Of a DNA stretch of 64,000 nucleotides, positions 19,754 to 39,002 are shown piece by piece. The stretch covers positions 2,170,001 through 2,234,000 of the forward strand of contig NZ_JAJJMO010000001.1 in assembly GCF_020905345.1 (NCBI RefSeq), given 5' to 3'. Both the position numbers and the translations under genes were made by a program. Under the pieces are notes generated by a model that was given only the letters and a program-made list of their open reading frames with translations, ran no database searches and was not told where the DNA came from. Source of the stretch: Flavobacterium pisciphilum. GTDB taxonomy: Bacteria; Bacteroidota; Bacteroidia; Flavobacteriales; Flavobacteriaceae. How positions within the stretch are numbered: the stretch's first letter is position 1; each line of letters begins with the position of its first letter.

Positions 19754-20865
19754 GATATTTTTCCTAGTTGGGCTAAATTTTCATATCCCTCAATCTGTGA
19801 TTGGGTGTACAAAAACATATTTCCATTATTCTTATAAAACTCATAATACCAATCACTAGTATATTCAATTAAAGTTGTATAATCGAGTGTTGGTTTCCAT
19901 TGAAAATGAAATAAGGCTTTATCACAATTCAATTTTAGTAATCCAGCTTCATAAAATTTAATATCACCAGTAACTTTATAAGCATCTTTAGAATTTTCAA
20001 AATGCCAACGTACACTCATATCTTCTAAAATTTCTTGAACTGTATGATTGTATTCTGGCTTAGGACCAAAATTAAAGCTTTCTCCATTTAAAGAGTGATC
20101 TTTAAATAAACGCTCACCCAATTGTAAATAACCACTAAGTGGTTCTAAGACATGTTGCCAAGGACGAGTAGCTTTAGGACTTCTAATTTCTACGACTTTA
20201 CCTAAGCTCCAAGATCTCATGCAATCAGGTATGATACGATCTAAAGCCCAATCTCCTCCACCTATAACATTTCCTGCGCGAGCTGAAGCTACTTTTACCA
20301 CTCCCCCCTCTTTTTTAAAAAAAGAATGATAATAAGATTTAAAAATTAACTCAGCTGCCCCTTTACTTCCGCTGTAAATATCTTTACCTCCAACTGCATC
20401 AGTTTCTTTATAACCAAATATCCATTCAACGTTATCATAACATTTATCACTGGTGATGATAATTGCAGTACATGGTTTATTGTAAGTACGCAAAACTTCC
20501 AGAACATTAGCTGTTCCCATTACATTTGTAGAAATAGTATCTATGGGTTCACTATAAGATAATGAAACAATAGGTTGTGCCGCTAAATGAAAAACAAAAT
20601 CAGGTTCGATTTCTTTTACTATTTCTCTAATAGTTTCCAAATCTCGTATGTCTGCAAAAAAATGTTTCATTTTACTCTCTAAGCCTAACTCCACAAACAT
20701 AGAAGGATCAGTAGGGATTTCATTCGAAATTCCGTACACATTAGCTCCCAACGAAAGCAACCAAGTACATAACCACGAACCCTTAAATCCAGTATTACCC
20801 GTAACTAAAACTTTTTTGTCACGATAAACATTTCCAAAAACTATTTTTTCTCCCATTTCACCCAT
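19741..20865 (-). CDS. rfbG: CDP-glucose 4,6-dehydratase
   Basis: A 374-residue extended SDR dehydratase with the RfbG-specific TGNTGFKGSWL nucleotide-binding motif near residue 22-32, HLAAQPIVSLSY and IITSDKCYDN. It converts CDP-glucose to CDP-4-keto-6-deoxyglucose. It overlaps rfbF by 25 bp from the ATG at 20865; an ATG at 20856 is an equal candidate. No RfbH-type 3-dehydrase follows, so the product is probably a 6-deoxyhexose rather than a 3,6-dideoxyhexose. Confidence 0.95.
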   Translation of the reverse strand: MGEMGEKIVFGNVYRDKKVLVTGNTGFKGSWLCTWLLSLGANVYGISNEIPTDPSMFVELGLESKMKHFFADIRDLETIREIVKEIEPDFVFHLAAQPIVSLSYSEPIDTISTNVMGTANVLEVLRTYNKPCTAIIITSDKCYDNVEWIFGYKETDAVGGKDIYSGSKGAAELIFKSYYHSFFKKEGGVVKVASARAGNVIGGGDWALDRIIPDCMRSWSLGKVVEIRSPKATRPWQHVLEPLSGYLQLGERLFKDHSLNGESFNFGPKPEYNHTVQEILEDMSVRWHFENSKDAYKVTGDIKFYEAGLLKLNCDKALFHFQWKPTLDYTTLIEYTSDWYYEFYKNNGNMFLYTQSQIEGYENLAQLGKISWTK

Positions 20866-21638
20866 GGTGCTTGATTGTTATTATAAAGTTCGTTTAATAA
20901 AGAATACTCTCTTGAAGTATCCATTGGTTGCCAAAAACCATCATGCTCAAAAACTTTCAATTCTCCTAGTTCAACCAATTTTTTCATTGGTTCCTGTTCT
21001 AAAACCAAGTCTTCAGCATCACTAAGGATATCCAAAAACTCCCTATTGCATACGAAATATCCTCCATTTATACGTCCACCACTCGCTTGAGGTTTCTCAT
21101 TAAACCCAGTAATAGTAGATCCATCTTCAGCTATTCCTAATTCTCCAAAACGACCAGGAGGTCTTACTCCTGTAAGTGTAACCATTTTTCCATGTGATTT
21201 ATGAAAAGCCACTAGTGCATCGATGTCAATATCTCCAACTCCATCTCCATAAGTAAGCATAAACATAGGGTCTTCACCAATATATTTTTTAATTCTTCTA
21301 ACACGAGCACCAGTCATTGCCTTAATTCCTGTTTCAGCTAGAGTTATTTCCCAGCCATCTTCATCATGGCTTATCTCTGAAATAATTTGTTCCGCTTTTT
21401 CTCCTAATTTTATGCTAATATCAGCACTTCGCAGTTCATAATTAACAAAAAAATCTTTTATTACTTCACTTTTATATCCCATACACAATACAAAATCCTG
21501 ATAACCATAGGAAGCATACGTTTTCATAATATGCCAAATTATTGGCTTCCCTCCAATAGGAATCATTGGTTTCGGTATATCGTCAGCGACATCACGAATT
21601 CTCGTTCCATACCCTCCACAAAGTATTACTGCTTTCAT
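20841..21638 (-). CDS. rfbF: Glucose-1-phosphate cytidylyltransferase
   Basis: A 265-residue nucleotidyltransferase with LCGGYGTRIRDVADDIPKPM at the start and WHIMKTYASYGYQDFVLCMGYK, both diagnostic of RfbF. It makes CDP-glucose from CTP and glucose-1-phosphate, opening the CDP-deoxysugar route completed by the next three genes. It is the first gene of this run, preceded by a 404-bp gap. The family's normal length is about 257 residues. Confidence 0.96.
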   Translation of the reverse strand: MKAVILCGGYGTRIRDVADDIPKPMIPIGGKPIIWHIMKTYASYGYQDFVLCMGYKSEVIKDFFVNYELRSADISIKLGEKAEQIISEISHDEDGWEITLAETGIKAMTGARVRRIKKYIGEDPMFMLTYGDGVGDIDIDALVAFHKSHGKMVTLTGVRPPGRFGELGIAEDGSTITGFNEKPQASGGRINGGYFVCNREFLDILSDAEDLVLEQEPMKKLVELGELKVFEHDGFWQPMDTSREYSLLNELYNNNQAPWVKWEKK

Positions 21639-24715: not shown

Positions 24716-26248
24716 CTATTTTTTAAAAACCTTCATAATTTTATAAATTTGCTGCCTCCAATTCATCGACATAAAATATTGTATTATAAAAGAAATCAAT
24801 ATCAAACCTCCAACTACCATAGCTACAATCAATAAATTCAACTTAGACTTTTCCTGCGGCAAATAGTCACTAATTAATGATGAGGCTATACTTAAAAATA
24901 AAATCGGAAAAAGCATAGGAAAAAAGATTAATTTTAAAGAATATAAAATATTCATCTTGAAATAATCAATCATCAGTTTGTATAAAACAAATGCTGAAAA
25001 AACAAATGCTGTTAATTTAAAAATAGCAAATGCTTGAATACCTAAAACACCAATCGTAAGAATAACACCTACCCAAAAAATAAATGGAAGCAACGCATTA
25101 ATAAAATACAATGTTTTTTGGCGTTCTTTGGATACTAGCATAAAATTAGTAGGATAGGTAATAAATGCAAAAAAATTACAAAAAACTAAAAATCGCATTA
25201 CAGGAAGCGAAGCGGAATAATCTACACCAACCCATGTAAGCACTATTGGCTTTGCTAAAATTGCTATTGTTATTATAGGAAAAACTACTACTGGTGCCAA
25301 AACAGTAACAATCTGCAAATAAAAAGATTTTAAACCTAATTCATCCCCACTACCTACAAAATGATTAAATCGAACATTGAAGGGTGAAAAAAGTATTCCT
25401 AATATACTTCTGAAAAAAGAAAGAACCGTCAAACCTATGGCATAAATTGCCACCTGATTTGCACCTAAAAACTTACCAATAACCACCGAATCGAGTTCAT
25501 AATACAATATCCAGGAAATCGTAGCAAACAAACTTGTAAACGCTAATCCTTTAGTCTTATCAAACACTTCTTTATTAAATCGTACAAAATAGAACAAAGT
25601 CTTAAAATTATATCTATATCGTTTTCTAGCTATCAATAATGTAGCTATTGACGTTATAAAATTTACAATCTGAGTGAAAAGAAAATAACCTACTATATCA
25701 TAATTTCCTACTCTAAAAAACCATAAAACAGATAGGATTTTAAATACACTTCCTATTATATTGCATCGTTGAACAATAAAATCTTCCATTCGAACACCAA
25801 ATATCATTTGTAACAATCTTTGTAACAAAGTAGTCGGAGTAAAAACTGCTAATATTAATAATAAAGAAGATGCTATATAATGTTGATTACCTGTTTCGAT
25901 ACCTTCCACCAATAATTCAGGTTGACGACTCAAAATAAAAAAGCCCAAGGAAAACAATAACAGAAAAACAAATAATATAAAATTGGTAAAACCTATCACT
26001 TTTATTTCTTCTTCTCTGTTTCCCTTTGCAAAATACTCTGCAGCATATTTTTGCCCTGCTCCCATAAATCCCAAATCGGCGTAAGCTAAAAAGATTGAAA
26101 AAGAAATACAAACAGAATAAATCCCATACACTGTTGGTTCAGATGTAAGATAGGGAATCACCACAAACATTGAGAGAAAATTCAATACTAACGAAACACC
26201 TTGCCAAATATAAATTTTGATATAATTTTTTGTGTAGGATTGTTGCAT
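24716..26248 (-). CDS. wzx: Wzx-like lipid-linked oligosaccharide flippase
   Basis: A 510-residue MOP/PST-superfamily membrane protein with about 12-14 hydrophobic segments, beginning NYIKIYIWQGVSLVLNFLSMFVV and containing the helix-rich YADLGFMGAGQKYAAEYFA region common in Wzx proteins. It would flip undecaprenyl-linked repeat units across the inner membrane. It overlaps the upstream gene of unknown function by one base. An ABC exporter is also in the locus (3895-6087), so two export modes coexist. Confidence 0.88.
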   Translation of the reverse strand: MQQSYTKNYIKIYIWQGVSLVLNFLSMFVVIPYLTSEPTVYGIYSVCISFSIFLAYADLGFMGAGQKYAAEYFAKGNREEEIKVIGFTNFILFVFLLLFSLGFFILSRQPELLVEGIETGNQHYIASSLLLILAVFTPTTLLQRLLQMIFGVRMEDFIVQRCNIIGSVFKILSVLWFFRVGNYDIVGYFLFTQIVNFITSIATLLIARKRYRYNFKTLFYFVRFNKEVFDKTKGLAFTSLFATISWILYYELDSVVIGKFLGANQVAIYAIGLTVLSFFRSILGILFSPFNVRFNHFVGSGDELGLKSFYLQIVTVLAPVVVFPIITIAILAKPIVLTWVGVDYSASLPVMRFLVFCNFFAFITYPTNFMLVSKERQKTLYFINALLPFIFWVGVILTIGVLGIQAFAIFKLTAFVFSAFVLYKLMIDYFKMNILYSLKLIFFPMLFPILFLSIASSLISDYLPQEKSKLNLLIVAMVVGGLILISFIIQYFMSMNWRQQIYKIMKVFKK

Positions 26249-27417
26249 TACAATTTCAATATTGTTTTAATAAAAATCTCAGAAGAAAGCTGATTTTCAC
26301 TCTCGACGGATGATAAATATTTATACTTGTAATCATTAAACTTTTCAATATCGACATACAAATCAAGTTCTTTGTTTATATCAAATCTATCAAAGTTAAC
26401 CACCTCAGCGCTGAGACAATCTCCAATAAAATTAGTCAAGTCATACAAATCAGGCATCGCCTTCTTTAACTCATCACTATTTAGTAAAACAATAGGCTTT
26501 TTGAATAATATCGGAAAACTAATTGCCGTACTATGATGGGTTAATGCAAATTTTGAATCTTTAACCAATTCGCTGGTTTTATCAAAAACTATTTTTCTAT
26601 TTTCAAAAGGGTTATTTGTTTTATAACCGATCGCTTTAGGATGTGCGGCTATAACAACACTTGTGTTGTATTTCTTTTCAATAACATTGAAGAAATTATT
26701 CAATTCTGTATAATACACATCTGCGTCCACATATTTTAAACCACAAATGGCTACATCTGGGTGGTATGCTAAATATTGATCCATGAAAACGACATAATCT
26801 TCTTTTACTACTTCATTATCATTAATAAGGTTTAAATATTTATCATAATCAAAATAATTAATTTCGATAACCTTACCTTTTTTTAAATCAAAAGTATTTC
26901 CGTAAAAAGTATTTCCTCCTTCAGAACCTGCTCTAAAAACAAAATCGTAAGTTTTAATAATATTATATTTCTTTAAAATTATTGAAAGTTTATTTTTTAA
27001 TCCGTTTAAAATCCTTTTAAACTCAAAATTTGAAAGTAATTTAATAACTTTTGATGAAACTTTTACTTTGGGAGTTGGATACATTCCTCTAGCAAAAAAA
27101 GCTAATTTACAATTGAAAGAAGTCAAAATTCTATACAATCTCCATACACGAAACTCATAATTAATATTAGTAATAAAAAATGTCGAACTAATATCCATAG
27201 TCGACAGTCTCTTATTCAATTCTTTCAGGGAAGACATTTTAATCACAGTCGTTTCAAAATAGTTTGACTCTACAAAGTTAATTTCAGAAAAAAAAAGATT
27301 TGTAACATCCCAATATTCAACATTTAACCCATTTTCAATACACTCCCCAAGATAATAATCCGAAAAATATTTCGGAGTTATTGGTTGATAATTTATATAA
27401 ACTACTTTTTTAATCAT
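26248..27417 (-). CDS. Uncharacterised protein, candidate GT-B nonulosonic acid transferase
   Basis: I do not recognise a named family for this 389-residue protein. It has VVFMDQYLAYHPD at about 209-221, an HP pair in VVIAAHPKA at 259-260, and THHSTAIS at 293-300 followed by FPILFKKPIVLLNS. An HP motif and a later S(S/T) motif at this spacing are the shared donor-site features of bacterial GT-B sialyltransferases (GT38, GT52, GT80 groups). Its position between wzx and the end of the legionaminic acid block fits a transferase using the CMP-sugar. This is inference from motifs and context; the N-terminal half gives no further clue. Confidence 0.5.
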   Translation of the reverse strand: MIKKVVYINYQPITPKYFSDYYLGECIENGLNVEYWDVTNLFFSEINFVESNYFETTVIKMSSLKELNKRLSTMDISSTFFITNINYEFRVWRLYRILTSFNCKLAFFARGMYPTPKVKVSSKVIKLLSNFEFKRILNGLKNKLSIILKKYNIIKTYDFVFRAGSEGGNTFYGNTFDLKKGKVIEINYFDYDKYLNLINDNEVVKEDYVVFMDQYLAYHPDVAICGLKYVDADVYYTELNNFFNVIEKKYNTSVVIAAHPKAIGYKTNNPFENRKIVFDKTSELVKDSKFALTHHSTAISFPILFKKPIVLLNSDELKKAMPDLYDLTNFIGDCLSAEVVNFDRFDINKELDLYVDIEKFNDYKYKYLSSVESENQLSSEIFIKTILKL

Positions 27418-27968
27418 CCATCAATTTTTTTAATTAGTTTAGCAGGACTCCCTGCTACAACCACTCCATCTGCAACAGATTTTGTAACAACAGAACCCGC
27501 ACCTACTACAGCGTTTTCACCTACTGTAACACCAGGTAATAAAATAGAATTAGCTCCAATCCAACAACCTTTTTTCAAGATTATCATTTCATCAGGATAA
27601 TAACCTTGATCAATTAATGGTATATCCAATCTATCAAACTTATGATTATTGATATAAAAGTGAACTCCGCATCCCATCATCACATCATCTTCAATAATAA
27701 TAGATGTTTGCAAACTTTCAGACTCTCCAAATAGCATAACACCAGGCCGTATTACAACTCTATTTCCTATCTCTATTTTAGAACAACCAACTGCATATGC
27801 TCCAGGTCTAAAATCAGCAGTGTCAGAAAAATGTTTAAATTTTTTTTTACAAAGTGCTAACATTTGTTTTTTATAAAACAACCTCCAATGTGTAAATGGG
27901 TGATCAGGACCAATTCTATCAGCACCAATATTATACTTTACTTTTTTTATTATCTCAATTATCAACAT
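27414..27968 (-). CDS. Hexapeptide-repeat acyltransferase (WbbJ/CatB-like)
   Basis: A 184-residue left-handed beta-helix acyltransferase. Hexapeptide repeats run through VVIRPGVMLFG, IIIEDDVMMGCGVHFYIN (with the catalytic His) and IGANSILLPGVTVGENAVVGAGSVVTKSV. It would transfer an acetyl or similar group from acyl-CoA to a sugar. It overlaps the genes on both sides (by 4 bp and 14 bp), so it is translationally coupled to the amidotransferase block and may decorate the nonulosonic acid or the glycan. Acceptor unknown. Confidence 0.85.
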   Translation of the reverse strand: MLIIEIIKKVKYNIGADRIGPDHPFTHWRLFYKKQMLALCKKKFKHFSDTADFRPGAYAVGCSKIEIGNRVVIRPGVMLFGESESLQTSIIIEDDVMMGCGVHFYINNHKFDRLDIPLIDQGYYPDEMIILKKGCWIGANSILLPGVTVGENAVVGAGSVVTKSVADGVVVAGSPAKLIKKIDG

Positions 27969-28734
27969 TCCAATTAGCTATATTTTCCCCTAATTCAATT
28001 AAATTTTTTCTAGCTTTTGGCAAACCATCTCCTATAAAATTAAATAAGTTTGCAGTAGCAACAGCACTTACATTTTTGTATTTCAACCCATCTTTAAAAT
28101 GGGATTCATTTCCTGCTCCACCTGCTATTATTAATGGTATTTTTATTTTTGATTCAAATTTTTCAATTGTATCGAAATCATATCCAAATCCAGTACCATC
28201 TTTGTCTATAGAATTTAGATATATCTCTCCAACTTCAAGTTTATCAAGATATATCAAGTAATCTTCTAGATTCATATCAATTTTCACAGCGCCATTATTA
28301 AGATAAACATCAAACGAATCATCATTTTTCTTATAATCTATTGACGCTACAATACTCTGTGAACCATATCTTTTTATTAACAACTGAACTAAATCTGGAT
28401 TTTCATACAATAAAGTATTTAGTACTATTTTATCAGCACCGCTTTTGAATAGTAATTCAGCATCTTCCATCGTTCTGATTCCCCCGCCAGCAGCAATTGG
28501 AATAAAAACATCATTTACTAATTTTTCAACTGTATTAGCAAAATCAATAATAGACTTATTTACTCGAGTAGCATTCAAAACTACAAGCTCGTCCAAAGAA
28601 AATGCAATGTTTTGAAATTTATAGTTCTTTTCAAGCCAATTTAAATTACCTACTTTTTGCAATCTAAAATTACGACTTTGCATAAAAAAGCCATCACTAT
28701 AAATTAATGTAAATATTATCCTTTTTCTTAACAT
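27955..28734 (-). CDS. HisF-like cyclase subunit of sugar amidotransferase system
   Basis: A 259-residue TIM-barrel homologue of HisF. It starts RIIFTLIYSDGFFMQS, as in the surface-polysaccharide HisF2/WbuZ group, with the catalytic-equivalent aspartates D14 and D133 (SIDY) and the phosphate-binding AAGGGIRTMEDAELLFKSGA and IIAGGAGN loops. With the HisH-like glutaminase it should channel ammonia to the WbpG-like amidotransferase. Its one-base overlap with hisH-like and the absence of any other his gene rule against histidine biosynthesis. Confidence 0.9.
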   Translation of the reverse strand: MLRKRIIFTLIYSDGFFMQSRNFRLQKVGNLNWLEKNYKFQNIAFSLDELVVLNATRVNKSIIDFANTVEKLVNDVFIPIAAGGGIRTMEDAELLFKSGADKIVLNTLLYENPDLVQLLIKRYGSQSIVASIDYKKNDDSFDVYLNNGAVKIDMNLEDYLIYLDKLEVGEIYLNSIDKDGTGFGYDFDTIEKFESKIKIPLIIAGGAGNESHFKDGLKYKNVSAVATANLFNFIGDGLPKARKNLIELGENIANWNVDN

Positions 28735-29345
28735 TAAAATTTTTCAATAAAATTTTTCAATAATCTTAATCCGTTATTTTGACTAAGTTCTGGATGAAAC
28801 TGCACTCCTACAATATTATTACATTCAAAACTTGCTATAAAGTCTGAACCATAATTACAATAAGATTGATTTATCTCATCTTCACTTACCATTTTATAAC
28901 TGTGAGTAAAGTAAAAATCAGCTTCACTAGGAAGTCCATCGTATATTTTAAGTTTATTATCAATTTTTAATTGATTAAACCCTACATGTGGCACTTTTAA
29001 GTCTGTATTATCAAACTTTATACAATGCGCATTGACAAAACCTAATCCTTCAGTAAAACCATCTTCAGTACTTGAGTTTCCTAAAAGTTGCATTCCAAGA
29101 CAAATTCCAATTAAAGGCTTTCCCTTTTCTACAACTATTTCTTTAAGATATTTATCTAGACTATTTTCTTTTATCTGTGCCATTGCTTTCCCAAATGAAC
29201 CAACACCAGGAAGAATTATTTTATCTGCACTATTTAAAACATTAAAATCAGCAGAAATAACAATATCCCCAACTCCTAAATAATTTAATGTGCTGACAAT
29301 AGACTTTATATTGCCCATACCATAATCGGCTATAACAATTTTCAT
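28734..29345 (-). CDS. HisH-like glutamine amidotransferase subunit
   Basis: A 203-residue class I glutaminase. The nucleophile is C82 in GICLGMQLLG and the other triad members are H184 and E186 in VQFHPELS; GVGSFGKAM forms the oxyanion-side loop. It releases ammonia from glutamine for its HisF-like partner downstream. It overlaps the amidotransferase gene upstream by 4 bp. The trio amidotransferase-HisH-HisF is the known arrangement for making acetamidino sugars in O-antigens and flagellins. Confidence 0.92.
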   Translation of the reverse strand: MKIVIADYGMGNIKSIVSTLNYLGVGDIVISADFNVLNSADKIILPGVGSFGKAMAQIKENSLDKYLKEIVVEKGKPLIGICLGMQLLGNSSTEDGFTEGLGFVNAHCIKFDNTDLKVPHVGFNQLKIDNKLKIYDGLPSEADFYFTHSYKMVSEDEINQSYCNYGSDFIASFECNNIVGVQFHPELSQNNGLRLLKNFIEKF

Positions 29346-30487
29346 ATACTAAAATCTTCTCCTGGAGTAAATTTAGGAGACCAAATACCATCAATTTTTT
29401 CGAACAAATCTTTATTTGCATACTTATCTAAAACAGAATCAAATTCTTCTTTAGTCATTTTATAATATTCTAAGAAAGTATCGATCAAATCATAAGGATA
29501 TGCATTGTCATACATTTTTACTAAATTTAGTGCTTGGTCTCTTGTCATTGAGCCTCTTCTAATCTCAATTCCAGCATCCTGAGTTGCTCGCCCAAATCCA
29601 AATTTCAAATACATCAAATAAGCATGTAAAGTATAAAGAGCTTGGTCATTTTGTGAAAAATTCGTAAAAGTATCTACACTTCCTTCTTCTTTTTCAATTA
29701 ATCCGCAGTTCTCTTTTGCAACAACGTAATTTCTATAAGAATCCCAAGCTTCAAAATATGACCAATGTGTAAATGAAAGTCCTATTTGCGAAACTTCTTC
29801 ATCTGTAGGGAATTTAAAAAATGCCAAATCAGCTTCAGAAATATCTCCATCTTCTCTAATTCTATCAAAAACAATTTGATGACCACCTTCCAAATATATT
29901 TTCTTCATATACTCAATATCATACAAAGGATTGTTTTTACTTTCACTAGAACCTCCATATTCAACCTCACCATCTTCACCATAAAACATCAATGGTATCT
30001 TAAAATTTGCAGCCGTTTTAATGCACGCAGTCATAATAGCAATTAACCATCCATAGTAAGGAAAACCTTTTTCAATAAAACCATACTTATTCAGCCTGTC
30101 TAATACTACAGGATTAGGAGATATATGAATATGATCATAACCTGATTGAATAAAATTAAAGAGATTCTGATCTCCAATTGGTAAAGATAAAGCAGGACGT
30201 ACAGTAACCGCCAATGGATTCATACCATATTTATGTTTTAACATATAAGCTACATAAGAGCCGTCTTTACCACCACTAACAGGAACAATGCAATCAAAAT
30301 TCCCTGTTTTAGATTTATATTTTGTTATTAACTCCTCAAGTTGTTTTTGTCTGTGTGACCAATCAATTTGTTTCTTTTCTTCCATCCATTGACAAGCATT
30401 ACACCAACCTCTATCATCAAATGTAATTCGAGGTCTTGTAGACATATTTAAACAATTCTTACACCAAGTTATTTTCTTTTCACTCAT
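29342..30487 (-). CDS. N-acetyl sugar amidotransferase (WbpG/WbuX/PtmG-like)
   Basis: An ATP-PPase-type amidotransferase. With the ATG at 30487 it has 381 residues, the family length; a longer frame to 30544 would run into the SDR gene. C9, C12, C29 and C32 form a likely zinc site and SGGKDGS at 71-77 is the PP-loop. In characterised systems such enzymes (WbpG, PseA and PtmG relatives) convert an N-acetyl group to an acetamidino group using ammonia from glutamine. In this locus the likely target is the legionaminic-type sugar made by the adjoining genes, which is inference. The downstream HisH and HisF genes would supply the ammonia. Confidence 0.88.
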   Translation of the reverse strand: MSEKKITWCKNCLNMSTRPRITFDDRGWCNACQWMEEKKQIDWSHRQKQLEELITKYKSKTGNFDCIVPVSGGKDGSYVAYMLKHKYGMNPLAVTVRPALSLPIGDQNLFNFIQSGYDHIHISPNPVVLDRLNKYGFIEKGFPYYGWLIAIMTACIKTAANFKIPLMFYGEDGEVEYGGSSESKNNPLYDIEYMKKIYLEGGHQIVFDRIREDGDISEADLAFFKFPTDEEVSQIGLSFTHWSYFEAWDSYRNYVVAKENCGLIEKEEGSVDTFTNFSQNDQALYTLHAYLMYLKFGFGRATQDAGIEIRRGSMTRDQALNLVKMYDNAYPYDLIDTFLEYYKMTKEEFDSVLDKYANKDLFEKIDGIWSPKFTPGEDFSI

Positions 30488-30515
30488 TACTATTATTTTA
30501 TTACTTTGATTTATA

Positions 30516-31259
30516 TTAAATGGCTGTCCAGCCTCCATCGACAATTAAATTCTGTCCCGTGATATATTTTGCATCATCTGACAATAAAAAAGCAACTGTT
30601 GGTGCAATATCCTCAGGCGTTCCTAACCTTCTCATGGGAACCTTTTTAGTATAGTTGCTTACAAAAACCTCATTTTGATTATCAAAAATTCCACCAGGAG
30701 AAACAGTATTCACTCTAACCTGTTGCGGTCCAAAATAAGATGCCACATATCTTGTAAAATTGACTAACGCCCCTTTTATTGCAGAATAAGCTGCAGGCAT
30801 TGTCATTGTTGTCCCTTCATAAACATTAAAATCGGCACCTACAACTCCATAAATAGAAGCCATGTTTATTATACTTCCTGTTTTTTGTATAGCCATTTCT
30901 GAAGCAACTTTTTGCGTTAAATAAAAATAACTATTCATTTGCCAATCTACATTTTGTCTCCAAGAATCGAGAGCTATATCTTCAAACTTATTTCCCCAAT
31001 CTTTTGTTCTTGGATAAGCATTATTTACAAGTCCATCAATTTTTTTATATTTTGCAAAAACTATTTCTAAAGCTCTATCAATTGAGGTACTATCTGTTAT
31101 ATCACAATAAACATTAGATAAATCTTCATTCGTATCGTGATTAATTTCAAAATTAATACAAAAGGCACCTTCAGAAATCAATCTAGTAATGATTGCTTTA
31201 CCTAGAAGACCATTTCCTCCTGTAATTATAATTATTTTATTTTTTAATCTATTATTCAT
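30516..31259 (-). CDS. SDR oxidoreductase, PtmA-like
   Basis: A 247-residue classical short-chain dehydrogenase with IITGGNGLLG at 11-20, VNNAYPRT near 78, and the catalytic set S135, Y158 and K162. It matches in size and context PtmA of the Campylobacter legionaminic acid cluster, which helps build the GDP-sugar precursor. Its start overlaps the Gfo/Idh/MocA gene by 8 bp. The exact oxidation or reduction step is not evident from sequence. Confidence 0.82.
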   Translation of the reverse strand: MNNRLKNKIIIITGGNGLLGKAIITRLISEGAFCINFEINHDTNEDLSNVYCDITDSTSIDRALEIVFAKYKKIDGLVNNAYPRTKDWGNKFEDIALDSWRQNVDWQMNSYFYLTQKVASEMAIQKTGSIINMASIYGVVGADFNVYEGTTMTMPAAYSAIKGALVNFTRYVASYFGPQQVRVNTVSPGGIFDNQNEVFVSNYTKKVPMRRLGTPEDIAPTVAFLLSDDAKYITGQNLIVDGGWTAI

Positions 31260-32175
31260 CTTTCAGGACAATTTTTAATATTTCTATCGATTCTCTAAGG
31301 CCATTCATTGGAAGTATGTTTTCTTTTAAACAATTAATAAAATAATTTAATTGATAACTATACGTATTTTTTACATCAAAATTAGTAGCCTCGAAAATAA
31401 TCTCTTTAGAATCATTAGTAATACAACTATTAATCAAATCAACTTCTAAAATTTCATTATCACAAACAAGTTCAATTACTCTTTTAGATTTTTTTCTGTA
31501 ATAATTTAATACAACATTTGCTGTAAATGTATCATACTCTAAAATATAATTAGCATAATCTATAGCATCAATATTTAAGCTTGATACATTTCTTAAAGTA
31601 GAACTACTTTTATTAGGCATTCCAAACAACCAACTAACATAATCTAATTCATGAAATAAATCTAAATGGACTCCACCACCCATTGACACATTGGCACTAT
31701 ATACTTTTTTAAAATCTACATTAGGACGCCAATCTGGTAAATATGAACCGCAATAAACATTGACTTCGTTAATTTTTAGACTTTCTTTATTTAATTTATT
31801 TTTCAAAAATTCAATACATGGATGAAATCTTAAGTTACAAGCTACGTAAGTAACTACTTGTTTCATTTCTACAAAATCAATTAATTTATCTATATTTTGC
31901 AATCTATGTACAGCTGGTTTTTCAATAAATAAAGGAATATATAGTTTTGCAAGTTTTTCGATAAAATCAAAATGCAAATGAGTTGGATTCGAAATAATTG
32001 CAAAGTCGAAAGAAAAATCTAAATTTTCAATATCATAAACATTTTCAATTCCTTCTTCAGTTTGTGAATTTGGATTTGATCTTAATGCGTAAATTGCTAT
32101 ATTAATATTCATGCTTTTTAAAGCCGAAACATGCTTTTTAGCTATTGATCCTAAACCAATAATCAGTATTTTCAT
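31252..32175 (-). CDS. Gfo/Idh/MocA oxidoreductase, PtmF-like
   Basis: A 307-residue oxidoreductase with an N-terminal Rossmann domain (ILIIGLGSIAKKH), the family EKPAVH motif in the middle and a C-terminal substrate-binding domain. It lies in a tightly overlapping run with the CMP-transferase (4 bp) and the SDR gene (8 bp). The position corresponds to PtmF in the Campylobacter flagellin glycosylation cluster, where PtmA and PtmF work in making the GDP-glucosamine precursor. Assignment to PtmF is by context; the Gfo/Idh/MocA fold is secure. Confidence 0.8.
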   Translation of the reverse strand: MKILIIGLGSIAKKHVSALKSMNINIAIYALRSNPNSQTEEGIENVYDIENLDFSFDFAIISNPTHLHFDFIEKLAKLYIPLFIEKPAVHRLQNIDKLIDFVEMKQVVTYVACNLRFHPCIEFLKNKLNKESLKINEVNVYCGSYLPDWRPNVDFKKVYSANVSMGGGVHLDLFHELDYVSWLFGMPNKSSSTLRNVSSLNIDAIDYANYILEYDTFTANVVLNYYRKKSKRVIELVCDNEILEVDLINSCITNDSKEIIFEATNFDVKNTYSYQLNYFINCLKENILPMNGLRESIEILKIVLKDE

Positions 32176-32894
32176 AGTTCAAAATCAAGTTTATTGTTTT
32201 GAAGCAGGTATTCCATAAATAAAAAATCTATTGGATGGTCTAAATCAAAACATACGTGATCCATCTCATAAATTAATGATTTATCTGTAATAGCACTTTT
32301 TGATCCAGATTCAAAAAAAGATCTTCTATACCAATAAAATGATGCATTCAAATCATAGACCTTTGGTGCAGACTGCCTCGTCATAACACTCCCATCTGGA
32401 TTCATTTTAACTAGTGAGTAAAAACCATCTGCATTCTTTTCAACCATATTAAAATAAGGACTTCTCGCCGCTGGATTTACAGAAAATAAATTTAATGCTT
32501 CAGGATTAGCATTTATTAAATTTAATGCTTCTTCAATATCCTCTAAAGTTCGCAATGGAGAAGTAACATCTAAATCTAAAACAAAATCATATTTATCGTT
32601 TATTATAGATTCTTCATAAAGTAACAAATCTTTAATTGTATCTATTTTGCCCGCTCCATCAGTAGCCAAATAATCTGGCCTTACATAACCCGTAAAAACA
32701 CCAAATGATTCTGCAGTATTTTTTATAGCCTCATCATCTGTAGACAAAGCAACTTTTGCATCAAATTTTCCTTTTATTTTTTGGGTTAATTCAATTGAAT
32801 AACCGATTAAGGATTTACCATTAATATTTTTTATGTTTTTGCCTGGTATCCCTTTCGACCCCCCTCTAGCACAAATAGTTATTAATATTTTCAT
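32172..32894 (-). CDS. CMP-nonulosonate cytidylyltransferase (LegF/NeuA-like)
   Basis: A 240-residue acylneuraminate cytidylyltransferase. The N-terminal RGGSKGIPGKN motif (from R10) binds CTP, and STDDEAIKNTAESFG, DLDVTSPLRTLEDIEEAL and DLNASFYWYRR are typical of the group that activates legionaminic acid (LegF/PtmB). It would form the CMP-sugar used by the final glycosyltransferase. It overlaps the Gfo/Idh/MocA gene and follows the CBS-nucleotidyltransferase by one base. Substrate assignment follows from neighbours rather than a specific residue. Confidence 0.92.
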   Translation of the reverse strand: MKILITICARGGSKGIPGKNIKNINGKSLIGYSIELTQKIKGKFDAKVALSTDDEAIKNTAESFGVFTGYVRPDYLATDGAGKIDTIKDLLLYEESIINDKYDFVLDLDVTSPLRTLEDIEEALNLINANPEALNLFSVNPAARSPYFNMVEKNADGFYSLVKMNPDGSVMTRQSAPKVYDLNASFYWYRRSFFESGSKSAITDKSLIYEMDHVCFDLDHPIDFLFMEYLLQNNKLDFEL

Positions 32895-32895
32895 T

Positions 32896-33942
32896 TTAAA
32901 ATTTTATATTATTAATATCTATATGGGCTTTCTCAAAATCTTCATGTTTTCCCACATCTAACCAATAACCAGAAAATGGGAAAGAAATTACTTTTAGTTT
33001 TTTATTAATCAATTCTTCCATTAAATCTGTTGCATTAAAAAAAGTGTCTTTCGGTATAAAACTTAACATTTTCTTTTTTATTAAATAAATTCCTCCATTT
33101 GAATAATAAGTATAAGTCGGCTTTTCTTTAAAACTTTTTACTGATCCATTATTTGTCTCCAAAACAGCATAAGGTATATTCACTTGATACGGAATAGTTA
33201 ACACAGCTAAATCTGCATCTTGTCTTATAAATTCAAGAAAAAACTGTTCATAATCAATATTTGTTAACAAGTCTGAATTTGTTACAAGAATATAGTCATG
33301 TTCAAAATTTTTTATTTTCGAAACTGCACCAATAGTTCCTAATGGTTCATTCTCCCAAACATATTCGATTTTTACATTCTTGTCTTCACCTTTTCCAAAA
33401 TGGCTTTCTATTTGTTCTCCTAAATATTTTACTGAAACCCAAAAATCATCTATTCCAAATAAAGCCAAACGATCCAAATTATGTTCCATAATTGCCTTGT
33501 CCCCAACTTTTAGAAGTGGTTTAGGAACAGTATCCGTTAACGGCTGTAATCTCTGACCTCTACCTCCGGCCATAATAACAGCATCAATTGGTAGATAAGA
33601 TCTAATTTTTCTAAAGTTAATAACATTAACTACTTTGTGATTTTCATCAACAACTGGAACTATTCGAAAATCACCTTCTCGATATTCAATAATTTTTTTT
33701 AGATTATTTTCACCTTTAATTATATATCGTGGATTGTCTTGAATAATCTCATCAACATTGCAATCTATGGTAAATCCTTTAAGTAATCCTCGTCTAACAT
33801 CTCCGTCTGTTAATGCACCAATTAGTTTGTCGTCACTATCAACGACAAAAAGTATCGCATCTTGTGATAACTCATTAAATTGAAGTAAAGCTTGTTTAAT
33901 TTTACTTCCTGAAAGAATTAAATGGTCTTTATAAATTCTCAT
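32896..33942 (-). CDS. CBS-domain nucleotidyltransferase (PtmE-like)
   Basis: A 348-residue two-part protein. Residues about 1-115 hold a pair of CBS domains (FVVDSDDKLIGALTDGDVRR is one), and residues 119-348 a sugar-phosphate nucleotidyltransferase with MAGGRGQRLQPLT at 124-136 and FKEKPTYTYYSNGGIY. This architecture is that of PtmE, the guanylyltransferase that forms GDP-glucosamine for legionaminic acid synthesis in Campylobacter. The CBS pair may sense nucleotides. It overlaps the LegG-like gene by 14 bp. Its presence favours a GDP-linked legionaminic pathway over the UDP-linked ones. Confidence 0.88.
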   Translation of the reverse strand: MRIYKDHLILSGSKIKQALLQFNELSQDAILFVVDSDDKLIGALTDGDVRRGLLKGFTIDCNVDEIIQDNPRYIIKGENNLKKIIEYREGDFRIVPVVDENHKVVNVINFRKIRSYLPIDAVIMAGGRGQRLQPLTDTVPKPLLKVGDKAIMEHNLDRLALFGIDDFWVSVKYLGEQIESHFGKGEDKNVKIEYVWENEPLGTIGAVSKIKNFEHDYILVTNSDLLTNIDYEQFFLEFIRQDADLAVLTIPYQVNIPYAVLETNNGSVKSFKEKPTYTYYSNGGIYLIKKKMLSFIPKDTFFNATDLMEELINKKLKVISFPFSGYWLDVGKHEDFEKAHIDINNIKF

Positions 33943-35035
33943 AAAAATTCTTAGTAATTTTAATTATATTATCTGCTGCATTAGATTCAAAATAAACATT
34001 ATGACCATTATAAGTTTTTAAACTAATAGCTTTAAAAACCGAAGAGACAATTGCCTCTTCTTTAAACTCACAATTTATAATATTATCACTTTGCAATCGG
34101 CCTTTTTGCCTATCCCCAACATTCACAACAAATTTTCCAAATGAAGCGGCTTCTAAAATTCCGCTTGAAGTATTCCCTAATAATATTTTAGCATAATACA
34201 TTGCTGAAAAATAGTTGATTTTTCCAAAATTCTCAATTAGCAAAATTCTATTAGGTAATTCTATTTTTTCAATAACTTCTCGATAAATTGAACCTTGAGT
34301 ATCTGCATTGGGCATTGTAATCACAATAAATATATCTTTTGCGATTTTTTTCAATGCGCTCCCCATCTCTTGAGCATATAACACATTATCTTTTAGCGAC
34401 ATTGTTTCAGGATGAAAAGTAACTAAGATAAAATCTTCATCAAGTATATCAAACTTTTCAAAAAAACTTTTTCTTTCAATAGGAACAAAGTTTTCAATTC
34501 CGTTTAAACTCAAAGATCCTGTAGTAAAAATATTTTCATTAGAATCTAACAAGCTTTGAACTTTCTTATTAAAAACATCGGTGGCTGTAAGATGGAGAAT
34601 TGAAGCTAAAGAAATCTGATGACGATAAACATTGTCTATTGCTCCCAATGTAGTTTCACCTCCATGTATGTGAGCAAATTTTATTCCAAAAGGGATACCC
34701 GCCTGTACAGCAGCACTCATTTCAAAGCGATCTCCTAAACAAAATACTAAATCATATTTATAATTTTGCCAAAAGTCCGCAAACTTTAAAACAGTCAAAC
34801 CATATGAAGAAGTTATTGATTGCTCATCATCATTTGAAATCAATGAAGAAATCATGTGAATACAATTATAGCCATCCTTTGTTATCTCATTTAATGTATA
34901 GCCATGACTTTTTGACAAATGTGTACCAAACGCAATAATCTCCATTTTAAAAAAAGAATCATTTTTCATTTTTTGAAGTAATGGTAGATATATTCCGTAA
35001 TCTGCTCTTGAGCTAGTTAATACTCCTACTCTCAT
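33929..35035 (-). CDS. NDP-sugar 2-epimerase, hydrolysing (LegG/NeuC-like)
   Basis: A 368-residue GT-B-fold hydrolysing 2-epimerase beginning VGVLTSSRADYGIYLPLL. Conserved pieces include CLGDRFEMSAA, HIHGGETTLGAID and GNTSSGILEAASFGKFVVNVGDRQKGR. It releases the NDP group and inverts C2 to give the free 2,4-diacetamido-mannose derivative that the LegI-like enzyme condenses with PEP. It overlaps the synthase gene by 4 bp. The NeuC-type alternative (ManNAc from UDP-GlcNAc) is less likely given LegB, LegC and LegH homologues alongside. Confidence 0.92.
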   Translation of the reverse strand: MRVGVLTSSRADYGIYLPLLQKMKNDSFFKMEIIAFGTHLSKSHGYTLNEITKDGYNCIHMISSLISNDDEQSITSSYGLTVLKFADFWQNYKYDLVFCLGDRFEMSAAVQAGIPFGIKFAHIHGGETTLGAIDNVYRHQISLASILHLTATDVFNKKVQSLLDSNENIFTTGSLSLNGIENFVPIERKSFFEKFDILDEDFILVTFHPETMSLKDNVLYAQEMGSALKKIAKDIFIVITMPNADTQGSIYREVIEKIELPNRILLIENFGKINYFSAMYYAKILLGNTSSGILEAASFGKFVVNVGDRQKGRLQSDNIINCEFKEEAIVSSVFKAISLKTYNGHNVYFESNAADNIIKITKNFYENL

Positions 35036-36054
35036 TGAATGTCCGAAAATAAAAGTTTATCAAACTCATTTTTATCAGTTGTCAGAATTTTACCAACTAT
35101 ATTTTCCCATTCCATTGGAGAAATTCCATCTCCTGGCCTCAATGAAATAATATCATCATCCGTAATAATATGTCCTTTTGATAAATTCCTATTAATAAAA
35201 ATACTTTTTCTGGCAATTATAATATTCTTAGTTTCGCTTTCGCTTGGCACTTTTTCACCATCACCTCCTATCGCTAACTCTATATTACGAATTGCTCTTA
35301 CCATCTCTTTTAATTCCTTTGGTTCAAGAGAAGCTACATGATCTGGCCCGGGTAAAGTTCTGTCCAAAGTAAAATGCTTCTCAATTATTCTCGCCCCCAT
35401 AGCAACTGCTGCTATAGGCACTTCAATACCAAGTGTATGATCTGAATATCCTATTTGCACATCAAAGTTTTTTTGTATTGCCAACATAGCCTTAAGATTA
35501 ACATCTTTCATAGGTGTTGGATATTCTGTATTACAATGCAATATAGAAATCAATTCTTTTTTCAATCCAAACTTAATTAACACATCTAATGCATTTTTGA
35601 TTTCTATTTCAGTGCACATGCCTGTTGACATAACAACAGGTTTTCTACATAAAGCAATAGCTCTTAAATAAGGATAATTTGTAATTTCTCCACTTGGAAT
35701 TTTAAAAAAAGTAAGCCCTAAACTATTTAAGTATTTCACTCCTTCAATATCAAATGCAGTGGAAAAAAAATTAATATTTCTTTCAGAACAATAAGACAAT
35801 AATTCTAAATGATTTTCATGGCTTAGTTCTAATTTTTTTAGCATTGCATATTGAGAATCATCACCATCGTTAATATTAACACTTTGATAATTGGCTTTCT
35901 TAGCTGATTTACTGACTAAGTTATCTGCTTTAAAAGTTTGAAATTTGACATAGTCAACACCCGCATCTACAGCAGCATCAATTAATTTTTTTGCTATTTG
36001 TATATCCCCATTATGATTTACGCCAGCTTCCGCAATAATAATTACTTTACTCAT
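35032..36054 (-). CDS. Nonulosonic acid synthase (LegI/NeuB-like)
   Basis: A 340-residue PEP-dependent synthase. The TIM-barrel part starts IIIAEAGVNHNGD and contains KFQTFKADNLVSKSAKKANYQ split over residues 37-57, IPSGEITNYPYLRAI, STGMCTE, LHCNTEYPTP and GYSDHTLG. Residues from about 280 form a SAF/antifreeze-like domain (RKSIFINRNLSKGHIITDDDI). It condenses the 6-deoxy-mannose derivative with PEP. It is closest in wording to the legionaminic/neuraminic synthases; context chooses legionaminic. Confidence 0.94.
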   Translation of the reverse strand: MSKVIIIAEAGVNHNGDIQIAKKLIDAAVDAGVDYVKFQTFKADNLVSKSAKKANYQSVNINDGDDSQYAMLKKLELSHENHLELLSYCSERNINFFSTAFDIEGVKYLNSLGLTFFKIPSGEITNYPYLRAIALCRKPVVMSTGMCTEIEIKNALDVLIKFGLKKELISILHCNTEYPTPMKDVNLKAMLAIQKNFDVQIGYSDHTLGIEVPIAAVAMGARIIEKHFTLDRTLPGPDHVASLEPKELKEMVRAIRNIELAIGGDGEKVPSESETKNIIIARKSIFINRNLSKGHIITDDDIISLRPGDGISPMEWENIVGKILTTDKNEFDKLLFSDIQ

Positions 36055-36056
36055 AC

Positions 36057-36680
36057 TTATATTATTCTACCTGGATTTCCTACCACTTTTTTTCCATCCG
36101 GAATATTAGAAATAATAACGGATCCAGCTCCAATTATAACATCCTTACCAATAATTACTCCTTGCTTTATTACTGAATTAGCTCCCACAAATGTTCTTTC
36201 ACCAATAGTAACATTACCAGCAAGAACTGCACCTGGTGCAACATGAACAGCATCCTGTAAAACACATTCATGTTCAATAATACAACCCGTATTCAAAATT
36301 ACATTTTTACCAATTCTTACAAGTGAATTAACAGATACATTTTTATTTATAAAACTACCTGTACCTATTATAGCATTTATTGAAATATGAGCAGTCTTAT
36401 GTATAGTCGTTTGAATTTCTTTTCCTTTACCTTCAATCAAATTTGCGATATTTTGTCTCAACTTATTATCTCCAATTCCAAGTACAAAAGGAATTTCTTT
36501 CAACCACCCAATAAAATCATTTTCTCTTTCAAATCCTAAGTAAACTAGATTATAAGGATCAGAACCAGCTTCCTCTTTATCAGAATATCCGATAATTTCA
36601 AAACCATTCTCTAAAACTGTTTCAGCAACTACATAAGCATGTCCTGAATACCCAATAAGAATAACTGATTTATCTGACAC
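36057..36680 (-). CDS. Nucleotide-sugar N-acetyltransferase (LegH/PglD-like)
   Basis: A 207-residue protein with the PglD architecture: an N-terminal nucleotide-sugar-binding Rossmann half (VILIGYSGHAYVVAE) and a C-terminal hexapeptide beta-helix. IIEHECVLQ with H137 is the catalytic-base position and HVAPGAVLAG follows with H146. It would N-acetylate the 4-amino sugar made by the LegC-like aminotransferase. It overlaps legC-like by 11 bp and precedes the synthase by 2 bp. PglD, NeuD and LegH relatives are hard to separate by sequence; neighbours decide. Confidence 0.88.
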   Translation of the reverse strand: MSDKSVILIGYSGHAYVVAETVLENGFEIIGYSDKEEAGSDPYNLVYLGFERENDFIGWLKEIPFVLGIGDNKLRQNIANLIEGKGKEIQTTIHKTAHISINAIIGTGSFINKNVSVNSLVRIGKNVILNTGCIIEHECVLQDAVHVAPGAVLAGNVTIGERTFVGANSVIKQGVIIGKDVIIGAGSVIISNIPDGKKVVGNPGRII

Positions 36681-37812
36681 TACTAGGTATATTTACAATT
36701 CGTTCTTCTAAAAATTCGGCATTAATCTGTTCGTCTCTTTGACAATTTGCATACATAGGTAAACGATACATTAATTGCCATATAGGTCGGGTCATTACTC
36801 CATTAGCATTAGTTCCTTCTAAAAACAAATCTCTATCAACTTTGCTATCTAACTCCACACACATCAGCCAATAATTTGCTTTGGTTTCTGGTGTTTCTGT
36901 TCTAAATTTCACACCGTTAGTAGCAAAAAAAGATTCGTACTCTTTTGCTAATACCCTTTTATTTTCTAAAAAACTATTCAACTGTTCCAATTGTGCACAA
37001 GCTAAAGCTGCGTTTAGATTTGGCATTCGAAAATTATACCCCATTTCATCATGAACATATTCATAAGGGTGCGGAATTTTTGCAGTAGTAGTTAAATACT
37101 TGGCTCTTTCTCCTAATTTAAGATCATTAGAAACAATAACACCTCCACCTCCACTAGTTACTATTTTGTTTCCATTAAATGAAAAAGTTCCTAATTTCCC
37201 AAAACTACCAGTTGGTTTCCCTTTATATTCACTCCCTAATGATTCAGCAGCATCTTCAATCACTGGAATTTTCCAAGTATCACAAATTGCGATTAACTCA
37301 TCTACATGTACTGGGAATCCAAATGTATGCATTGGCAAACAAGCACTTATTCTTTTTCCAGTTTTTTTATTATAACAACCATCTTCCCTTAAGTCTCCAT
37401 TCTCTTCAAGAAATAAAGAAACTGCTTTAGGAGACAACCCCATTGTATCTAAATCAACATCCAGAAAAATTGGAGTTGCATTTAGATACGCAATTGCATT
37501 AGCTGTTGCGACAAATGTCAAAGCTTGCGTAAGTACTTCATCTCCCGCTTTCACGCCTATTAACCGCAGAGCTACTTGAATTGCAGCTGTACCATTTACA
37601 ACAGCCACAGCTTTTTCAGTCTGAGTGATGCTTTGCATCATTATTTCAAATTTATCAACATAAGCACCAACAGAAGATACAAATGTAGAATCAATAGTTT
37701 CTATTAAATATTTTTTTTCGTTTCCACCAAAATGAGGAACATGCAACGGAATAAAATTATCAGTTTTATATTGTGCTTTAATAAACGAAATAACTGAATT
37801 AAAATCTGACAT
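36670..37812 (-). CDS. PLP-dependent sugar 4-aminotransferase (LegC-like)
   Basis: A 380-residue DegT/DnrJ/EryC1 aminotransferase. The PLP lysine is K216 in SFNGNKIVTSGGGG, and D187 in IEDAAESLGS contacts the pyridine nitrogen. GTAAIQVALRLIGVKAGDEV is the substrate-side segment. It would aminate the 4-keto-6-deoxy product of the adjacent LegB-like dehydratase, 2 bp away. The wording matches the LegC family (for example the LHVPHFGGNEKKYLIETIDS start). This intact copy provides the template for recognising the decayed relative at 10679-11697. Confidence 0.93.
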   Translation of the reverse strand: MSDFNSVISFIKAQYKTDNFIPLHVPHFGGNEKKYLIETIDSTFVSSVGAYVDKFEIMMQSITQTEKAVAVVNGTAAIQVALRLIGVKAGDEVLTQALTFVATANAIAYLNATPIFLDVDLDTMGLSPKAVSLFLEENGDLREDGCYNKKTGKRISACLPMHTFGFPVHVDELIAICDTWKIPVIEDAAESLGSEYKGKPTGSFGKLGTFSFNGNKIVTSGGGGVIVSNDLKLGERAKYLTTTAKIPHPYEYVHDEMGYNFRMPNLNAALACAQLEQLNSFLENKRVLAKEYESFFATNGVKFRTETPETKANYWLMCVELDSKVDRDLFLEGTNANGVMTRPIWQLMYRLPMYANCQRDEQINAEFLEERIVNIPSSVR

Positions 37813-37814
37813 AA

Positions 37815-39002
37815 TTACATTTTTGAATCTAAATATTTTCCTGTTTCTTTATGTCCGAAATTAGGTATCATATCATGAAATAAGCTAACAATTTCATCCT
37901 TACTCCAAAATAAATTTATTTTCATTTCATTTATCCGTTTAGTGAAATTTTCTAGCTTTATATTATTAAAATTAACATCGTTTTTAATAATTCCTAGATT
38001 ATCAAATCGATCCATATCTAAAACTTCCTTATCTGTGAAAAATTCTTCAAAATCTTTCTCTCCAGTTGTATCACTTCCGGTAAATAAGCATGGCCATTTT
38101 TTTTGCTTAATCAATTCTTCTACATTTTTTCTAGCTTCTTCTTCAGACTCACATAAATAAGGTTCATATCCAATTTCAGCTAAATACTTTACTGCAATAT
38201 CTGCAAAAGAAATCAAATGCAAATTCTCATTTAATTTAGGAAAAAAAATATCCCTGTTATCTCCAAAAATACAAGACATTAAACAAAGTTCTCCTGATTC
38301 TTTAGGAGTGACAAAATAACGTTTAATATCATTTGGTGCCACAATTGGCTGTCTTTTTATAATTCGCTGATTAAAACCATGTAATAAAGAACCATCAGAA
38401 AAAGCTACATTAGCGAATCGAGCTGTGGAAATTTTAATTTGTTGACTTTTACGCATTAAATACATTTCCATAATCCTTTTAGAAGCGCCCATCATATTTA
38501 CTGGATTAGCTGCTTTATCTGTAGAAACACAAAAATATTTTTTTGTTCCCTTATCAATAGATTGCCGCAATGTTTTCTCTGTATTAAAAATATTAACATC
38601 AATCATCCGCATTAAAGTGAAAGAATCCTTTTCACTTCTCACATGTTTTAAAGCAGATAAATTTAACACGTAATCATATTTACCATCTGATTTTATAAAA
38701 GCATCATATTCAATTGACCCAATATCCAATGCAAATGTCTGAAAATCACCATCAATATAACCGTATGAACTTCTCAAATCTCTTACTAGCTCTACCATGT
38801 TATTCTCACTAATATCTACAACATGCAACTTTAGTGGATTGCGTTTAAAAATCTCTTTAGTGACAGCCTGCCCAATAGAGCCAGCTCCACCAATAACCAA
38901 AAAACTAGATCCTTGAACCTCATCTTTTAATGCATTTTCATAAACTAAAATATCATTATTAAATATTTCTTTGTCTCTACCAATTAATTTAAGAATGTTC
39001 AT
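37815..39002 (-). CDS. NDP-sugar 4,6-dehydratase (LegB-like)
   Basis: A 395-residue soluble SDR dehydratase of the CapD/FlaA1 group with VIGGAGSIGQAV near residue 37-48, LSALKHVRSEKD and STDKAANPVNMMGASKR, where methionine takes the place of the usual SDR tyrosine. It carries a C-terminal extension past the core, as in LegB. It would make the 4-keto-6-deoxy intermediate that begins the legionaminic branch, probably from GDP-GlcNAc given the PtmE-like gene. It is the first gene of the nonulosonic acid run, 36 bp after wzz. Confidence 0.92.
   Translation of the reverse strand: MNILKLIGRDKEIFNNDILVYENALKDEVQGSSFLVIGGAGSIGQAVTKEIFKRNPLKLHVVDISENNMVELVRDLRSSYGYIDGDFQTFALDIGSIEYDAFIKSDGKYDYVLNLSALKHVRSEKDSFTLMRMIDVNIFNTEKTLRQSIDKGTKKYFCVSTDKAANPVNMMGASKRIMEMYLMRKSQQIKISTARFANVAFSDGSLLHGFNQRIIKRQPIVAPNDIKRYFVTPKESGELCLMSCIFGDNRDIFFPKLNENLHLISFADIAVKYLAEIGYEPYLCESEEEARKNVEELIKQKKWPCLFTGSDTTGEKDFEEFFTDKEVLDMDRFDNLGIIKNDVNFNNIKLENFTKRINEMKINLFWSKDEIVSLFHDMIPNFGHKETGKYLDSKM

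Follow-up and report, generated by a model that had tools for sequence, protein, structure and literature searches.

A rare, unnamed GT-B protein family as candidate CMP-nonulosonic acid transferases of Flavobacterium surface-sugar loci

Transferases that use cytidine monophosphate (CMP)-activated ulosonates have been described in several families. In the sialyltransferase families GT38, GT52 and GT80, a D/E-D/E-G motif supplies the catalytic base and an HP motif binds the donor, as set out in two papers (PMC2169525, PMC5517516), one of which gives S339/T340 as the phosphate residues of the GT38 polysialyltransferase MhPST (PMC5517516). Here, we report on GT389, the name used for a protein of 389 amino acids encoded at 26248..27417 on the minus strand, in a surface-sugar gene cluster of Flavobacterium pisciphilum. 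The stretch of DNA analyzed spans 64,000 nucleotides (contig NZ_JAJJMO010000001.1, positions 2,170,001 to 2,234,000; hereafter the window, with coordinates counted from its first letter). The analysis gave a probability of roughly 0.8 that GT389 is a transferase of CMP-activated nonulosonic acid (CMP-NulO).

Other CMP-ulosonate users include GT99 WbbB, GT107 KpsC, GT140 KrkA and GT118 KpsS1, and two reports describe an HP motif in the enzymes of this group that act on 3-deoxy-D-manno-oct-2-ulosonic acid (Kdo) (PMC10148158, PMC12887879). According to the KrkA report, the Lys/Arg of a (K/R)XHP motif reads cytosine; KrkA has no such residue and relies on Thr254, which precedes its phosphate serine by 17 residues. 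Its authors argue that sugars whose C5 group is equatorial, e.g., sialic acids, may not be easily accommodated by retaining Kdo-like enzymes (PMC12887879). In the Bacteroidota, the pseudaminic acid transferase GtfS of Tannerella forsythia is described as encoded in a cluster that also holds wzx and CMP-NulO genes, and as GT-B by homology. Its 445 amino acids compare with 389 in GT389, and the likeness of the two is known from this description, not from the GtfS sequence (PMC6120980). Another paper describes NulO-transferase candidates of T. forsythia with a TagB domain (PMC7439481).

Linkage, family membership and predicted fold

GT389 is rare and closely linked to NulO genes. It was found in 4 of 395 genomes of a phylum sample, 6 of 398 of a genus sample and 5 of 395 of an order sample; with genomes shared between samples counted once, 10 distinct holders remain, among them the window genome. 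A repeat search of the phylum sample with a profile returned the same 4 genomes, and a relative on the chromosome of Flavobacterium sp. LPB0248 (L005; loci carry L numbers and genomes G numbers) has the same coordinate as the match in G593 of the genus sample. For the nine other holders, 20 kb around each gene plus flanking extensions were examined. In all 10, a NeuB relative lies 2.9–10.5 kb away from GT389, together with a NeuC relative in that stretch. Of the 398 genomes in the genus sample, 303 have some NeuB relative (E<=1e-30), but 9 have the window-type NeuB (at least 80% identity; next best 71%). All 6 GT389 holders are among these 9, an overlap with a hypergeometric probability of 1.6e-11, or of 7e-10 once the window genome is left out. 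This gene linkage is the strongest evidence that GT389 probably acts as a CMP-NulO transferase.

Shared descent lowers the independence of these genomes, but the genes recognized in common between the window locus and those of G383 and G887 are the NulO genes, GT389 and superfamily-level matches. The window-type flippase open reading frame (ORF) directly adjoins GT389 in 7 of the 10 holders (window, L016–L020, L023) and is one gene off in L021; in L024 the neighbor is an unrelated flippase-family protein (Polysacc_synt above cut-off), and in L022 no flippase was recognized beside GT389. Because the loci of G021 and G1101 carry a different aminotransferase and a different cytidylyltransferase in their NulO module, members of the family probably use several related NulOs, the donor differing between holders. 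The GT389 proteins of these two genomes, which belong to different bacterial families, are 75% identical, and 41 of the 45 pairs among holders share merely 19–41% identity.

An ATG-initiated ORF of 389 codons fills 26248–27417 on the minus strand, and frame 1 of the plus strand across the same span has many stops. Translation bore out the ORF, the HP motif at residues 259–260 (26638..26643) and the HHSTAIS motif at 294–300 (26518..26538) given in an earlier reading made from the sequence alone (the sequence-only reading), and its statement that the protein matches no family also held. The sole Pfam match was RLIP76_Ral-bd, below cut-off; NCBIfam gave 0 matches; and the best PDB sequence had an E value of 0.21 with the single sequence and 0.013 with a profile (CapG, 45 residues). 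Of 3611 candidates in the single-sequence search, 156 (counting the query itself) reached E<=0.001, and the profile search gave 271 matches among 7997 scored; descriptive names among the matches listed were always "hypothetical" or "uncharacterized." An alignment was built from 73 of the 120 single-sequence matches listed (of the 156), the most distant being 24% identical to the window protein. When these 73 members were searched with Pfam at E<=1, 23 families were matched with no glycosyltransferase family among them, and none of the 73 matched PF07388, PF04464 or PF05159.

Conservation of the HP and HHSTAIS motifs in this alignment is far above chance. The invariant residues are D190, D213, E247, A258, H259, P260 and R274, so that HP stands in 73 of 73 sequences; at S296, 69 sequences have S and 4 have T, and at T297, 60 have T and 9 have S. 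A full-text literature search found no description of the family, with CAZy outside the search and an entry there possible. Collectively, GT389 looks like a real, conserved, unnamed GT-B family that is apparently new.

The fold comes from an AlphaFold2 model with a predicted local distance difference test score (pLDDT) of 93.9 and a predicted template modeling score (pTM) of 0.90. The top-ranked structural matches of the whole model are GT-B enzymes, with TagF and TarL among the best, and most matches in a viral library were of a general GT-B type. On this model GT389 is a GT-B glycosyltransferase; the sequence-only reading had named structure prediction and fold comparison as a check, and a GT-B fold, not another one, came out. 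For the donor domain alone, the GT38 polysialyltransferase 5wcn has the lowest root-mean-square deviation among the matches listed, and the KpsC entry 6mgd stands at rank 40. No GT80, GT52, GT42, GT99 or GT140 entry was recognized among the best 50 fold matches, an absence that proves nothing, as lists of the best 50 exclude no family, GT42, GT97 and GT100 included.

Motifs and candidate catalytic residues

Compared to the GT38 polysialyltransferases (MhPST, 5wcn/5wc6), GT389 shares the GT-B architecture, the donor-domain fold and an HP motif followed by Ser/Thr phosphate motifs, but lacks the D/E-D/E-G base, the Lys before XHP, a PF07388 match and significant profile similarity to polysialyltransferase-like (polyST-like) proteins. 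A [DE][DE]G triplet was found within residues 1–205 in merely 3 of the 73 rows; after the fifth strand (positions 105–116) [DE]G occurs in 1 of 73, and the site reads A-R-G, with R in 44. Membership in GT38, GT52 or GT80 was rejected because D/E-D/E-G is missing. Other profile comparisons gave nothing significant (probability 2.3 for two Capsule_synth-like proteins and 0.3 for GT4 neighbors), with small template profiles limiting the tests. Neither the polyST-like profile nor the Capsule_synth-like protein of L063 retrieved any PDB sequence at E<=10, so these tests are weak.

As the family lacks the catalytic acid motif of GT38, GT52 and GT80, catalysis would use other conserved acids, namely D190, D213, D221 and E247. 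D213 (26779..26781) lies at the end of the first donor-domain strand, 208–212 in the model, and D221 (26755..26757), a candidate catalytic acid, is D in 72 sequences and E in 1. These acids suggest a catalytic arrangement other than that of known sialyltransferases. The C-terminal Rossmann domain (starting near residue 200) would bind CMP, and H259-P260 and S296-T297 would hold its phosphate, the latter pair by analogy to S339/T340 of MhPST. Residues of GT389 were matched to those of MhPST or KrkA by the order and spacing of motifs, not by superposed structures.

A resemblance to KpsC was also considered. In KpsC-type modules a hydrophobic run ends in DQ and is followed by D (5 of 5), and GT389 reads D213-[Q/E]-Y-L-P-x-H-P-D221 at seemingly the same place. 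The QXXXD nucleophile motif is absent from GT389: column 214 is Q in 28, E in 28 and D in 8 of 73, and the next conserved acid is D221, 7 residues on, not 4. The attraction of KpsC-type membership was a published KpsC peptide with VDQ and then the nucleophile; it was rejected for its different spacing and for want of profile similarity, hhalign against five KpsC-type modules giving a probability of 0.0. PF05159 has no match in the window genome. GT389 is like KrkA in having no Lys/Arg before XHP and in carrying a threonine, T281 (T in 67, S in 6 of 73), 15 residues before S296. Legionaminic acid, however, has an equatorial C5 group, which retaining Kdo-like enzymes may not easily accommodate. 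A doubtful proposal is that GT389 forms a lineage of its own among CMP-nonulosonate transferases, one that lost the sialyltransferase base and in which D221 or D213 would serve as nucleophile, a covalent enzyme–sugar intermediate would form, and the legionaminic-type acid would be transferred with retention.

Loci without GT389 and alternative roles

Ten similar NulO loci without GT389 (L055–L064) have NeuB proteins 56–85% identical; L058 ends at a contig end and L064 is partial. In L059 and L064 a protein matches the polysialyltransferase family PF07388 above cut-off, and L060 and L062 carry relatives of the L064 protein at 28–32% identity. These polyST-like proteins, candidate NulO transferases in legionaminic-type loci of other genus genomes (L059:6851-7954, L064:2599-3642, L060:9951-11009, L062:9974-11011), have HP plus EDG (L059) or PDG (the other three). 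In these 4 of the 10 loci they stand beside a flippase-family protein above Pfam cut-off. A cryptic GT389 was sought in all ten loci and their extensions and none was found (best E 0.0015). One transferase family thus looks as if it replaces another at these NulO loci. Matches below cut-off were seen in L056 and L063 (weak, Capsule_synth-like) and in L061 (weak, DUF6716), and no candidate transferase was found in L055 and L057. The related 500-residue proteins at L056:8621-10162 and L063:6854-8368 adjoin NulO genes and are possible KpsC/KpsS-type NulO transferases. In the holder regions, 406 ORFs of at least 150 amino acids were searched with profiles for three types of known or likely CMP-ulosonate transferases, and the single match at E<=0.05 was the polyST-like protein of G887, itself part of the search profile.

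Several points weigh against a function in CMP-NulO transfer. First, the donor-domain Z scores for GT38 and GT1 (11.7 vs 11.4) are a tie, GT1 enzymes and epimerases outrank 5wcn (rank 27) in Foldseek with the donor domain, and hhalign gave a probability of 40 against NeuC and 1.7 against polyST-like proteins (three-sequence profile). Second, the sialyltransferase-like motif argument of the sequence-only reading stood in part: HP and a later Ser/Thr are present, but D/E-D/E-G is not, and because the NeuC epimerase of the same operon carries both HP (208–209) and SS (290–291), the pair is no mark of a CMP donor and a motif-only proof of function was rejected. Where (K/R)XHP has its Lys/Arg, 71 of the 73 members carry A (residue 257), and a distant member, the GT389 protein of G383 (L022:9359-10555), has YP in place of HP. 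Third, genomes sharing the locus by descent are not independent, and GT389 is missing from 3 of the 9 genomes that carry the window-type NeuB. One of these, G746, offers a weakly Capsule_synth-like candidate at L056:8621-10162 (17.0 bits vs a cut-off of 20), and no alternative transferase was recognized in the other two (G705, G492). Furthermore, G887 carries GT389 and a polyST-like protein together; the window and G324 share the same module with GT389 proteins merely 41% identical, so that identity does not simply track the donor module; and the user search in holder regions left out TagB/TagF-like, GT42 and GT52 profiles. To our knowledge, there is no biochemistry for any GT389 member.

Improbable as it is, another sugar of the cluster could be the one transferred, e.g., the CDP-activated sugar of the CDP-glucose dehydratase pathway (19741-21638). 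TagF and TarL, CDP-polyol transferases that resemble GT389 in their GT-B fold and rank among the top matches of its whole model, use CDP donors, while GT389 itself has no PF04464 match. The CDP-glucose genes start about 3–5 kb from GT389 in 5 of the 10 holders, window included; in the other 5, tblastn at E<=1e-15 was negative over 40–50 kb each, whereas NeuB and NeuC are present in all 10. GT2 and GT4 enzymes, the more usual users, adjoin the CDP-glucose genes. With the pathway near GT389 in merely 5 of 10 holders, a CDP-sugar user was rejected.

It is also quite improbable that GT389 is a GT-B-fold epimerase or hydrolase that makes a NulO variant rather than a transferase. The block already holds a full route with its own NeuC, GT389 mostly adjoins the flippase gene, and L055, L056 and L057 have the same NeuB and no GT389. 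In addition, the acids invariant in the N-domain of a NeuC alignment (e.g., D95, E105, E127) have no clear counterpart in GT389. There, D37 is the only acid conserved above 85% ahead of the domain junction (D190, D192), and 6 of 73 members have N instead.

A second set of NeuB, NeuC and cytidylyltransferase genes lies 5–8 kb outside the window start (L082:9766-12751), with a NeuB about 35% identical to the first, a NeuC above the NCBIfam cut-off and a PseF-like cytidylyltransferase below it. That GT389 uses this second NulO is highly improbable, as 303 of the 398 genus genomes have some kind of NeuB relative but 6 have GT389, and as the second set has a possible user of its own, a weakly TagF-like protein (L082:5504-6901; PF04464, 18.0 bits vs a cut-off of 22.1), comparable to the T. 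forsythia candidates described with a TagB domain (PMC7439481).

Gene neighborhood and proposed pathway

The sequence-only reading placed GT389 between a flippase gene and a CMP-NulO block, and this position was confirmed, with three genes intervening on the side of the block; all genes named here are on the minus strand. The flippase-type gene (24716..26248), called "wzx" by that reading, itself matches nothing in Pfam at E<=0.001; a homologue in L016 reaches E 2.2e-4 with Polysacc_synt_3, which is below cut-off. The intervening genes encode a hexapeptide (LbH) acyltransferase (27414..27968; PF00132), a HisF-like amidotransferase partner (27955..28734; PF00977 His_biosynth, E 2.2e-39) that adjoins WbuX also in L019, L020 and L021, and a HisH-like glutamine amidotransferase subunit (28734..29345; PF00117 GATase, E 1.3e-20) with the same synteny in these loci. 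The GT389 ORF overlaps the acyltransferase ORF by 4 bases and the flippase ORF by 1 base, and because of these overlaps the stretch from the NulO block (39002) through the flippase gene (24716), GT389 included, reads as one operon.

The block itself (29342-39002), in order of rising coordinate, opens with a WbuX-type N-acetyl sugar amidotransferase for the acetamidino group (29342..30544; TIGR03573, 355 bits vs a cut-off of 203). It continues with a PtmA-like SDR oxidoreductase (30516..31259; PF13561, NF006619 above cut-off and the PtmA model below), a GFO/IDH/MocA oxidoreductase (31252..32175; PF01408), a CMP-NulO synthetase of LegF/NeuA type (32172..32894; PF02348, PseF model below cut-off) and a nucleotidyltransferase with a CBS domain (32896..33942; PF00483 and PF00571), presumably of PtmE type. 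The NeuC/LegG 2-epimerase (33929..35035; TIGR03568), the NeuB/LegI NulO synthase (35032..36054; TIGR03569), a NeuD/PglD-type acetyltransferase (LegH; 36057..36680; TIGR03570) and the LegC aminotransferase (36670..37812; TIGR04181) are all above cut-off, and a sugar 4,6-dehydratase (37815..39002; PF02719), named LegB type by position, is below the NCBIfam dehydratase cut-offs. Because LegC, NeuB, NeuC, NeuD and WbuX are above NCBIfam cut-offs and HisF/HisH-like proteins accompany them, the NulO of this strain is probably an acetamidino legionaminic-type acid.

The other transferases tested in the gene block are GT2 and GT4. Elsewhere in the window, a protein encoded at 2500-3780 on the minus strand matches Glyco_transf_56 (PF07429) above cut-off. 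Among other loci, L022 (G383) carries two NeuB genes, and a variant NulO module seen in two different bacterial families (L017:11392-13445, L023:5810-7866) has a glutamate-1-semialdehyde-aminomutase-like aminotransferase and another cytidylyltransferase in the place of LegF.

For GT389 as a CMP-NulO transferase, we infer the donor, acceptor, cell location and catalytic roles as follows. The legionaminic-type acid from the adjacent leg-type block, probably in its acetamidino form, would be transferred to a growing lipid-linked repeat unit, which the neighboring flippase would then turn over. The sequence-only reading had proposed a new family of legionaminic or acetamidino-legionaminic transferases; CMP-NulO transfer and a new family are well supported by the linkage in 10 of 10 holders and the GT-B model, and the exact donor is deduced from the gene block. 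The family provides a concrete set of candidates with which to test GT-B ulosonate transfer without a known catalytic motif, and GT389 could supply an enzyme for making glycans with legionaminic-type sugars.
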